Source: Psychrobacter sp.
GTDB taxonomy: Bacteria; Pseudomonadota; Gammaproteobacteria; Pseudomonadales; Moraxellaceae
Length of the DNA: 28,597 bases
Direction: 5' to 3'
NCBI GenBank assembly: GCA_012270355.1
Contig: JAAXIL010000100.1
Span: 1 to 28,597 of the forward strand
Shown here one piece after another: positions 12,808 to 20,429 of this stretch. Every line of letters begins with the position of its first letter. Within the stretch, counting starts at the first letter, position 1. A model generated the notes under the pieces. The model worked only from the letters and a program-made list of their open reading frames with translations, had not been told where the DNA came from and searched no databases. The position numbers and the translations under genes were made by a program.

Positions 12808-12880
12808 GGCCGTAACTTTCTTGTATCAGCTTAGTGTAGCCTCAGTATAAATCAAATCCATTAGAAATAAAAATAAAATT

Positions 12881-12913
12881 TGTGGATAACTTTGTTAAAT
12901 TATCTGTGGATAA
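12881..12913 (-). promoter_or_regulatory. pair of exact DnaA boxes upstream of dnaA
   Basis: Two TGTGGATAA copies (12881-12889 and 12905-12913) lie in the same orientation with starts 24 bp apart. They form the dnaA-proximal edge of oriC and are well placed both for origin recognition and for control of dnaA. Confidence 0.85.
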
Positions 12914-12958
12914 CTATTTATACAGAGTTTTACACAAGTTGTCATCAATTTAACCACA

Positions 12959-13075
12959 GTTAAAATAACAACTTATATATTTGATTTAATTATAATTTTT
13001 TTATTTATACACAGAAAATTACCAACCCAATAATAATAAAAGAGCATATATATAATTAATTATAGAGCAAGCACC
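12959..13075. other. AT-rich DNA-unwinding candidate
   Basis: About 115 bp is nearly free of G and C. It includes the exact 14-bp palindrome TATAATTAATTATA (13051-13064) and is bracketed by DnaA boxes on both sides. This is the most likely strand-opening site. Confidence 0.6.
13005..13013 (+). promoter_or_regulatory. DnaA box TTATACACA
   Basis: It fits the relaxed DnaA-box consensus TTATnCACA and lies in the middle of the AT-rich stretch. Confidence 0.7.
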
Positions 13076-13079
13076 AAAT

Positions 13080-13088
13080 TGTGGATAA
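13080..13088 (-). promoter_or_regulatory. exact DnaA box at the rpmH side of the AT-rich region
   Basis: TGTGGATAA follows directly after the AT-rich stretch and closes the core box array. Confidence 0.85.
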
Positions 13089-13200
13089 AGCTCTAATTCT
13101 TTATAAATTGAAATTTTTAAACGCTATTAGGTTAGGTAACAATTAGACTTAAAATCGTTGTTTACTAAAGACGTATGCCTCAGGTCACCAAGCAATAAAT

Positions 13201-13229
13201 TTGACAATTGAACTTAATAAGGTTAGTAT
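13201..13229 (+). promoter_or_regulatory. strong sigma70 promoter of the rpmH operon
   Basis: A perfect -35 TTGACA (13201-13206), a 17-bp spacer and a -10 TAGTAT (13224-13229) predict a start near 13236, about 127 nt before rpmH. A one-mismatch DnaA box (TTTTCCACA, 13240-13248) overlaps the first transcribed bases, so DnaA binding could influence this promoter. Confidence 0.75.
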
Positions 13230-13362
13230 GCCCAACTATTTTTCCACAACTAAATTCAAAATTTGCTTGTTATGTGCTTTTATCTGCAACGTATTGCATA
13301 GCAAATTATATTATATAGTTTAGTGGTCACCGTATTCTTATCGACGCTTAAAGGCATTTCTT

Positions 13363-13497
13363 ATGAAACGTACATTTCAACCCAGCAACCTAAAACGTAA
13401 ACGTACTCACGGTTTTCGGGCTCGTATGGCAACCAAAAAAGGTCGTCAAGTTTTGGCTCGTCGCCGTGCAAAAGGTCGTCATCGTTTAACAGTCTAA
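13363..13497 (+). CDS. rpmH: 50S ribosomal protein L34
   Basis: This 44-residue protein starts [18 protein letters not shown] and ends KGRHRLTV, the standard length and sequence of bacterial L34. It is extremely basic and binds 23S rRNA in the large subunit. It is the first gene right of oriC and is read away from it. A terminator-like hairpin follows before rnpA, so L34 can be made in excess over the downstream proteins. Confidence 0.98.
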
Positions 13498-18422: not shown

Positions 18423-19496
18423 ATGTCCCACGCTCAATCATCACATTCCATTCAAGCTCAGATAAATCAAGACCAATACTATATGAGTCTTGCCATTGCT
18501 GAAGCGAAACTAGGCATCTATACCGCACGTCCAAACCCAGCAGTGGGATGTGTATTAGTGAAACAAGGGCAAGTGGTTGGCACCGGTTTTCATCCTAAAG
18601 CAGGTCAGCCTCATGCCGAAATTTTCGCCTTACAAGACGCTAAGACGAATGGGCTGGATGTAAGTGACGCAACGGCTTACGTTACGCTTGAACCTTGTAG
18701 CCATACGGGACGTACCCCACCTTGTGCAAAGGCATTAATTGATGCCGGCATTGGTAGAGTGGTCATTGCAGGGCTTGACCCGAACCCTAAGGTAGCGGGA
18801 CGAGGCGTGGCAATGCTCAAATATGCAGGGGTTGCAGTGACAACGGAAGTTCTGCAAGCCCAAGCGGAAGACCTAAACAAAGGCTTTTTAAAAGCAATGC
18901 GAACGCAAATGCCTTATGTACGACTCAAAATTGCCAGTAGTTTAGATGGTCGCACAGCGATGGCATCGGGTGAGTCTAAATGGATAACGGGCGTCGAGGC
19001 TCGTGAAGATGTGCAAACCTTGCGGGCTTTGAGTGGGGCGATAATCACCGGTTCACAAACCGTTATTGACGATAATCCGAGTCTGACGGTGCGTTCTAAT
19101 CAATTGGGGATTGAGGTTGATGACATTCCACAACCCAAAGTCATAATTTTGGACAGACGAGGTAGGTTGTCTAAGGGGTCGGATTTTCAAGTCCTAAAAC
19201 TAGATGGTACGCAAATTTGGCAAGTAGATAATCTTGAAATGCTATTGTCAACGCTGGTGACTGAGCATCAGATTTATGATGTATTAGTGGAAGCGGGAGC
19301 GAGCGTGGCTGGCAGTTTTATACAGGCAAATTTGGTAGATGAATTAATTGTTTATCAAGCCCCTTGTATTTTAGGGTCAACGACTAATCCGATGCTCACC
19401 TTATCGATTGAACAATTATCCAATCAGTATCGTTATGTATTAGTTTCACATGAAACAGTCGGTAATGACTTAAAATTAGTTTATAAGCGTCCATAA
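18423..19496 (+). CDS. ribD: bifunctional riboflavin biosynthesis deaminase/reductase RibD
   Basis: This 357-residue protein carries out the second and third steps of riboflavin synthesis: deamination of the pyrimidine, then NADPH-dependent reduction of the ribosyl group. The N-terminal cytidine-deaminase-like domain has the zinc ligands H64 (with E66, HAE) and C92/C101 (PCSHTGRTPPC). The C-terminal reductase domain starts near LKIASSLDGRTAMASGESKWITG and includes GSQTVIDDNPSLTVR. The first 18 residues are a polar extension. The gene lies 69 bp after nrdR. Its last codons contain a parS-like site, and the long ribD-ribE gap that follows carries DnaA boxes. Confidence 0.96.
   Translation: MSHAQSSHSIQAQINQDQYYMSLAIAEAKLGIYTARPNPAVGCVLVKQGQVVGTGFHPKAGQPHAEIFALQDAKTNGLDVSDATAYVTLEPCSHTGRTPPCAKALIDAGIGRVVIAGLDPNPKVAGRGVAMLKYAGVAVTTEVLQAQAEDLNKGFLKAMRTQMPYVRLKIASSLDGRTAMASGESKWITGVEAREDVQTLRALSGAIITGSQTVIDDNPSLTVRSNQLGIEVDDIPQPKVIILDRRGRLSKGSDFQVLKLDGTQIWQVDNLEMLLSTLVTEHQIYDVLVEAGASVAGSFIQANLVDELIVYQAPCILGSTTNPMLTLSIEQLSNQYRYVLVSHETVGNDLKLVYKRP
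19443..19456. other. parS-like site 7 (inside ribD 3' end)
   Basis: GTTTCACATGAAAC is encoded as VSHET 14 codons before the ribD stop. Confidence 0.6.
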
Positions 19497-19602
19497 ACAA
19501 TATGTATACTGGGCTTATGTGTGATAATGAAACCCATGCTTTTATACAAACTTTTCCACAGGTATTATCCACTTATTTATAATTTTTAAAGTGTGATTTG
19601 TG

Positions 19603-19616
19603 GTTTCATGTGAAAC
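19603..19616. other. parS-like site 8 (ribD-ribE gap)
   Basis: GTTTCATGTGAAAC abuts a one-mismatch DnaA box (19617-19625). Confidence 0.6.
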
Positions 19617-19684
19617 TGTGGAAAAGCTTATACAATTGAAAAAGATTCAAAGCTAAGATTAGCTTACACCCTTTATATTAAAGC

Positions 19685-19698
19685 GTTCCACATGGAAC
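19685..19698. other. parS-like site 9 (ribD-ribE gap)
   Basis: GTTCCACATGGAAC is the same variant as site 5, 38 bp before an exact DnaA box. Confidence 0.55.
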
Positions 19699-19832
19699 AG
19701 ATATCTAGCCCATAGTTCCGAATTATTTATTAGGGTTGTGGATAAGTTTTTAAGTTATTTGGTTTTATGATAAAAAGGATAACTTTCCCCAAAGTTATCC
19801 ACAATCAAATTCAAATAGATATTGAGGTAGCA

Positions 19833-20429
19833 ATGTTCACTGGTATTATTGAAAGTACAGGTAAATTGATGGAGATGGCTGAAGTCGGCGGAGACATACG
19901 ACTGACCATTGCCTCTAATGACTTAGATTTTAGCGATGTTAAACTGGGTGATTCGATTGCCTGTAATGGCATTTGTTTGACGGTGATTGAATTACTTGAT
20001 AATAGCTATGCAGTGGACGTGTCTCGAGAAACCTTAGCAAAAACTACCATGCAATACTGGCAAACAGGCGATGTGCTTAATTTAGAAAAAGCCATGTTGC
20101 CTACCACCCGTTTTGGCGGTCACATGGTATCGGGTCATGTGGATGGCGTGGGAGAAATTATTGTCATTAATGAAGATGCCCGCTCGATTTACTTTGAGGT
20201 CAAAGTACCCACTGAACTTAAAAAGTATGTCGCTACCAAAGGGTCAATTACGCTAGATGGGATTAGCCTGACCACTAACCTTGTCAAAGATGACATAGTT
20301 TGCCTCAATATTATTCCGCATACCAGTGAGGTCACTAATATCGCCAAACATTGGCAGTTGGGCTCAAAGATTAATGTTGAGGTGGATTTAATTGCCCGCT
20401 ATTTAGAGCGATTACAATCAGCTAATTAG
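19833..20429 (+). CDS. ribE: riboflavin synthase alpha chain
   Basis: This 198-residue enzyme joins two molecules of 6,7-dimethyl-8-ribityllumazine to give riboflavin. Two lumazine-binding repeats are visible: residues 1-97 start MFTGIIESTGKL, and the second begins near MVSGHVDGVGEI. Both carry the expected GDSIACNGICLTV / KGSITLDGISLT pattern. I place the start at the ATG at 19833, where MFTGI is the invariant family N-terminus and GAGG lies about 6 nt upstream. The frame stays open to an ATG at 19767, but the extra 22 residues would overlap an exact DnaA box and have no family support. Conserved PHTSEVTNI lies near the C-terminus. It completes a ribD-ribE pair. Confidence 0.95.
   Translation: MFTGIIESTGKLMEMAEVGGDIRLTIASNDLDFSDVKLGDSIACNGICLTVIELLDNSYAVDVSRETLAKTTMQYWQTGDVLNLEKAMLPTTRFGGHMVSGHVDGVGEIIVINEDARSIYFEVKVPTELKKYVATKGSITLDGISLTTNLVKDDIVCLNIIPHTSEVTNIAKHWQLGSKINVEVDLIARYLERLQSAN

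Follow-up and report, generated by a model that had tools for sequence, protein, structure and literature searches.

The gap between ribD and ribE in Psychrobacter is a real, conserved and clade-limited cluster of predicted DnaA and ParB sites, far beyond what chance would produce. The window, as we call the whole stretch of DNA that was analyzed (28,597 nt), includes ribD (18423..19496, + strand; TIGR00326) and ribE, encoding riboflavin synthase (19833..20429, + strand; NF006767), which are the left and right neighbors of a 336-nt gap. The initial annotation had listed DnaA boxes and parS-like sites in this gap, and all of them are present where it placed them. Four boxes match TTWTNCACA: box 1 (19552..19560, +) and box 3 (19617..19625, −), which both carry the one-mismatch sequence TTTTCCACA, with box 1 lying 65 nt before box 3, and boxes 4 (19737..19745, −) and 5 (19795..19803, +), which are exact (TTATCCACA) and convergent, 58 nt apart from start to start. 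Another one-mismatch box (TTATCCACT; 19565..19573, +) fails TTWTNCACA and is probably weak. The parS-like sites, to which no strand applies, are parS1 (GGTTTCATGTGAAACT; 19602..19617, core start 19603), a further site 82 nt after it (CGTTCCACATGGAACA; 19684..19699, core start 19685), and one within the end of ribD (19442..19457, core start 19443) that has two mismatches to TGTTTCACGTGAAACA. Absent from the initial annotation is the fact that parS1 (19602-19617) and box 3 (19617-19625) have one base in common, forming a fused composite at 19603-19625.

Dinucleotide shuffles of the gap contain on average 0.08 TTWTNCACA boxes, and none of 200 shuffles reaches the four observed. Several consensus boxes beyond chance are thus found outside oriC, as in an extra-oriC DnaA-box cluster. 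When up to three mismatches are allowed, parS-like sites number 10 across the window, compared to 0.24 expected; the site at 19685 has four mismatches to TGTTTCACGTGAAACA and hence falls outside these 10. As the initial annotation claimed, exact boxes elsewhere in the window are confined to oriC, which has three of them, at 12881, 12905 and 13080. The draft genome from which the window comes contains 23 exact boxes in 1.95 Mb, five of these in the window. No RNA family was detected in the window at the Rfam gathering threshold. As single-stranded DNA, the end of the gap folds better than shuffles (z −3.7); we claim no separate hairpin role for boxes 4 and 5, as two inverted boxes suffice.

Whether the boxes are lost in relatives that keep the ribD-ribE order was a question raised by the initial annotation. 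They are not: boxes, parS sites and spacings are retained while the flanks drift. Our first sample comprised 36 Psychrobacter genomes, from which 30 ribE loci were taken, and the alignment and gap counts are based on 28 of these, L043 and L049 being excluded because their gaps are cut by contig ends. Across the 28 aligned gaps, column identity to the reference row is 92% for boxes and 95% for parS, compared to 46% for the other gap columns. As the genomes have common ancestry, the counts are not independent events, and the evidence lies in this contrast with the drifting flanks. The convergent exact pair, box 4 (−) and box 5 (+), is found upstream of ribE in 30 of 30 loci with a spacing of 57–59 nt, and each of the 28 gaps contains two to four exact boxes. 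Box 3 precedes box 4 by 120–145 nt in all 27 gaps scored, and by 130–133 nt in 21 of them. The distance from parS1 to the next parS, measured in the 27 gaps in which parS1 was detected with TGTG after it, is 27–28 nt in 24 gaps, 37 nt in two and 82 nt in one, that of the window. Among 13 relatives measured, an exact box lies 74 nt before box 3 in 10 and 65 nt before it in two. The window's element is less regular than most, both in the 82 nt to the next parS (27–28 nt being usual) and in its box 3, which reads TTTTCCACA.

TTWTNCACA boxes average 4.3 per gap, compared to 0.10 in shuffles, and for none of the 28 gaps does any of the 200 shuffles attain the count observed (left gap ends for these counts were estimated from the stop of the ribD frame). 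Some sites do drift in single genomes, as might be seen in a relic or a chance cluster without function. However, the conservation, the shuffles and the parS-box control described below all oppose such an explanation, which we regard as extremely unlikely.

We extended the survey to 299 Moraxellaceae genomes: 105 Psychrobacter (the window's included), 22 of genus g31, 126 of g36 and 46 of thirteen other genera. Genus g31 is probably Moraxella, and g36 is taken as Acinetobacter. By hand count, the pair pattern TGTGGATAA-N44..56-TTATCCACA is found in 101 of the 105 Psychrobacter genomes, at a single place in 98, and its position beside ribE was confirmed in the loci opened, namely the 30 first ones and 19 of 20 further ones (the two sets partly overlap). 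Four genomes are without the exact pattern. Of these, G098, G224 and G228 still show some of the cluster but have a box 4 or box 5 that departs from the consensus, and G289 was left out of locus inspection because its RibE start was not found. Outside Psychrobacter, the pair pattern has matches in 62 of 194 genomes, at least partly at other places (in G128 and G140, for example, 7–8 kb away from ribE or the composite), and is therefore diagnostic within Psychrobacter only. A RibE-based search for related loci returned three matches, P. lutiphocae, P. phenylpyruvicus and P. piechaudii; in the first and the last of these, ribE is preceded by the exact pair and by three parS sites.

We found the fused composite, GTTYCAYRTGRAACTGTGNAWAA, in 89 of 105 Psychrobacter genomes, 10 of 22 g31 genomes and 0 of 172 other Moraxellaceae, with 0 matches for the reversed control. 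Its position is immediately before ribE in 10 of 10 g31 loci and in all 20 additional Psychrobacter loci that were opened. Besides the window's genome, 0 of 368 genomes in a class-wide Gammaproteobacteria sample (one other Moraxellaceae included) carry it. A caveat is that the pattern is strict, such that other boxes or parS variants would be missed. Sixteen of the 105 Psychrobacter genomes lack the strict composite, and in the three inspected (G020, G022 and G034) the box part has drifted. All six g31 gaps inspected contain at least four consensus boxes, and three of them have a parS beside box 3. One g28 genome shows two boxes and three parS-like sites in a different layout. In 13 genomes from nine genera (g23, g25, g26, g29, g30, g32, g33, g34 and g37), no box or parS-like site was found upstream of ribE.

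Six g36 genomes have neither a box nor a parS-like site in the 1,200 nt upstream of ribE; in these loci an ORF ends 22–34 nt before ribE, and there is no ribD match. An A. baumannii record explains this arrangement: where Psychrobacter has the element, an ORF of 430 aa (L114 2557-3849) separates ribD from ribE. Its DPPY motif makes it adenine methyltransferase-like, as judged by eye. A ribD-ribE gap of 22–34 nt in Acinetobacter was accordingly rejected, another ORF being in between. The 700 nt upstream of ribE in the A. baumannii record contain no TTWTNCACA box and no parS pattern. PLSDB lists NZ_CP077849.1 (3.66 Mb) as a plasmid of A. baumannii; this entry contains nrdR, ribD and ribE and has the look of a chromosome.

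The g36 arrangement, together with the location of the gap directly upstream of ribE, would fit a role in controlling the ribE promoter through DnaA and/or ParB, and ParB of P. aeruginosa is said to repress promoters adjacent to parS3 and parS4 (PMC5521831). Two observations make this role quite improbable. While the pair keeps its spacing, box 5 lies anywhere from 38 to 319 nt before the ribE start, and sigma-70 promoter-like sites show no excess over shuffles (3 versus 3.1).

To relate parS to the boxes, we considered 22 regions of ∼20 kb each (28.6 kb for the window's and 19.1 kb for one other), with L146 dropped because it lies on the same contig as L148. A TTWTNCACA box is found within 20 nt of 35 of the 48 parS sites in the ribD-ribE gap, compared to 0 of 104 elsewhere in the regions and 0 of 35 in further outer flanks from five genomes. 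The parS pattern clusters near the origin, with 18 of 18 sites within 139 kb in G035 and 16 of 16 within 58 kb in G027, the two genomes that supplied full positions; the reversed control gave 0 matches in eight genomes. In three g31 genomes, the sites are partly more spread. A parB match above the family cut-off was obtained in five of five genomes searched. The match in the window's genome (G000:C224:19154-19693) has one in-frame TAA, which could be an assembly error. Origin-clustered sites and a parB gene make the parS assignments credible, and the predicted DnaA box that touches parS near the origin is what a DnaA-bound centromere of the Caulobacter type would look like. The suggestion in the initial annotation that this is a site of DnaA/ParB crosstalk gains support from the fused composite.

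A DnaA-binding parS (centromere) locus in Caulobacter crescentus was reportedly described by Mera et al. in 2014. We propose, with about as much confidence as doubt, that the ribD-ribE gap is an origin-proximal DnaA/ParB control element like this locus. DnaA would bind boxes 3, 4 and 5, and ParB would bind parS1 and a partner parS. The exact convergent boxes 4 and 5 and the box 3::parS1 composite would form one unit in a parS-rich domain near oriC, and the second parS, 27–28 nt beyond parS1 in most Psychrobacter gaps measured, would be part of it. Box 3, which overlaps parS1 by one base, usually lies between two parS sites, and this arrangement may let DnaA and ParB exclude or position each other. 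Occupancy by DnaA, rising before initiation, could change how ParB loads or slides at the parS next to it; alternatively, ParB could displace DnaA from the element. The outcome would be a coupling of initiation to origin segregation, as has been described for the parS of Caulobacter that binds DnaA.

According to the cited reviews, the parS of Caulobacter with its DnaA site lies within 8 kb of the origin, DnaA binds parS, low DnaA can move the unreplicated centromere, and partitioning of this unreplicated centromere is said to need the DnaA binding site within parS (PMC4468827, PMC6399470). The Psychrobacter element similarly appears to join parS to a DnaA box near the origin, at 6.9–9.1 kb from the dnaA start to ribE and on the same side of oriC in 23 regions. 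Psychrobacter belongs to a different bacterial class. Its box shares a base with parS, there is mostly a second parS, and an exact convergent pair sits at fixed spacing, features that may set it apart from the Caulobacter locus. The rctA/parS2 locus of Vibrio cholerae also combines initiator and ParB sites in one regulatory locus near an origin, although in the cited account the initiator is RctB and the chromosome is the secondary one (PMC6399470). The Psychrobacter element would be of a known kind, an initiator/parS link near the origin, in a form (fused box plus convergent pair) that appears to be new.

Detailed knowledge of how initiation is coupled to segregation exists for few species, and for a direct DnaA-parS link the cited reviews give Caulobacter as the case (PMC6399470, PMC4468827). 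Among the matches listed in a search of the open-licence literature (titles and abstract openings), no such element is described for Psychrobacter, Moraxella or Acinetobacter. The fused composite, present in most of the genus and, among the other sampled Moraxellaceae, in g31 only, offers a small target of exactly known position that can be mutated base by base, and is well suited to distinguishing mutual exclusion of DnaA and ParB from mutual help. More generally, plain comparison picks out extra-origin DnaA sites in Moraxellaceae.

Titration of DnaA is the main rival to a DnaA/ParB control element. In this case the gap would be a titration or nucleotide-switch locus of the kind represented by the B. 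subtilis cluster or E. coli datA/DARS, and the parS sites would be mere neighbors, an account that we consider possible but rather unlikely. Predicted ParB sites abound near the origin in any case, which leaves room for the boxes to act on their own; DnaA acting alone, at least in part of g31, would fit the three of six gaps there that retain boxes but have no parS at box 3. Titration is also favored by the two to four exact boxes per gap and by a location that suits duplication soon after initiation. Titration leaves unexplained the fused composite and its restriction to the ribD-ribE gap.

Clusters of DnaA boxes proximal to oriC in B. subtilis were reportedly described by Okumura et al. in 2012. 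The element resembles such clusters in having DnaA boxes outside oriC. In the cited passages, the role of the B. subtilis clusters is to hold free DnaA, and no fused parS is mentioned (PMC5295017). The same source states that a strain without six DnaA-box clusters initiates early, in line with titration, but also that B. subtilis clusters with significant roles were not identified there (PMC5295017). The E. coli loci datA, DARS1 and DARS2 are, like the element, non-coding DnaA-box clusters with conserved spacing; datA needs an IHF site and DARS2 needs IHF and Fis, with no parS mentioned in the cited passages (PMC4585315). A strict IHF consensus is present in 14 of 28 gaps, mostly at one place, compared to 2.3 expected, which speaks for a datA-like function. 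However, half of the gaps lack this motif, and none is found in that of the window, which hence does not have the IHF site between DnaA boxes characteristic of datA. In the window (19684-19699) and in two relatives (L025 and L027), a further parS sits ∼50–60 nt before box 4, at about the place that the IHF motif occupies in other species. For DARS1 and DARS2, the defining feature is a core of three DnaA boxes in a set arrangement. Finally, a separate distal DnaA cluster, described below, looks more DARS/datA-like than the ribD-ribE gap.

The main oriC of the window is the dnaA-rpmH gap (12808..13362; rpmH, named by eye, starts at 13363), with TTWTNCACA boxes at 12881, 12905, 12928, 13005, 13080 and 13240. 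This gap contains a conserved array of boxes of its own as well as an AT-rich block that is likewise conserved, and yidC, mnmE, nrdR and ribD lie between it and the element. The initial annotation had argued against the ribD-ribE gap as the main start of replication, a position supported by GC skew and, less clearly, by duplex stability. The cumulative GC-skew minimum lies at most 1.3 kb from the dnaA start in four of five relatives' genomes; in the fifth, G027, skew is noisy and the minimum is 35 kb away. In all five genomes, skew rises from dnaA to +7 kb, across the stretch from oriC to the element. The ribD-ribE gap therefore does not lie at the GC-skew minimum, as judged from relatives' genomes, that of the window being a draft. 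When the least stable 40-mers of the oriC gap and the element are compared, the oriC one is the weaker duplex in 22 of 23 regions (the 23-region counts of distance, fourfold-site skew and duplex stability keep L146, on the same contig as L148). Fourfold-site skew is weak, with a mean of −0.022 (sem 0.041) for 21 interval genes, compared to −0.055 / −0.080 for leading genes and −0.103 / −0.150 for lagging genes; the interval leans leading, which is not decisive. On these data, a main origin at ribD-ribE is disfavored, and the element is probably not the main origin.

Alternatively, the element might be the second half of a bipartite origin, with DnaA bound there looping to oriC and aiding unwinding. 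Bipartite origins exist in B. subtilis, according to the cited source (PMC5295017), the element keeps to the same side and a similar distance from oriC in the 23 regions, and in about half of these (11 of 23, the window not among them) its least stable 40-mer forms an AT-rich stretch 71–98 nt before box 4. On the other hand, the dnaA-rpmH gap has a box array and a conserved AT-rich block on its own, and its least stable 40-mer, besides being the weaker duplex in nearly every region, lies at +319 to +364 in 16 of 23. The skew minimum at dnaA in four of five genomes and the four intervening genes, which together are far longer than one dnaA gene, also argue against a second half at ribD-ribE. 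We therefore regard this idea, which the initial annotation had raised, as improbable. In 14 of 23 regions (L150-L155, L157-L159 and L161-L165), an extra exact DnaA box (+) lies at about +1646 to +1870 from the dnaA start; the window lacks this box.

A third, distal DnaA-box cluster was found at G000:C176:24923-25153 (L014 1279-1509) and in L218, L219, L220 and L223-L252. Its layout is TCCCCA-N4-CTGTGGATAA-NNN-TGTGNATAA, usually followed by ACTTGACA. An IHF consensus, strict in 21 of 31, keeps a fixed position, and a half-parS, GTTYCAC, keeps an almost fixed one in 31 of 31. By its sequence, the cluster resembles loci of the DARS/datA type. GTTCCAC/GTTTCAC half sites are described as being bound by the ParB of P. 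aeruginosa (PMC10419367). The tandem box pattern is found in 102 of 105 Psychrobacter genomes, with some matches at other places, and a longer pattern is found in 96 of 105 (the window's genome not among them) and in 17 of 194 other Moraxellaceae.

A bolder version of the control-element reading, which we put forward tentatively and think rather doubtful, takes in both loci. A DnaA-gated centromere would have arisen in the Psychrobacter-Moraxella line, convergently with Caulobacter. Box 3 and parS1 would be a point of mutual exclusion between DnaA and ParB, the rise and release of DnaA would license ParB clamp loading and segregation, and the distal half-parS locus would be a second node of the circuit.

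The neighbors of the distal cluster differ between genomes, as judged by eye from the adjacent ORFs. It adjoins a trmB-like ORF in G035 and G034 and precedes a recA-like ORF in G035 (L218 748-3509, L219 2622-3449), whereas in the window's draft genome it lies between phosphoglycerate-mutase-like and pfkB-like ORFs (L014).
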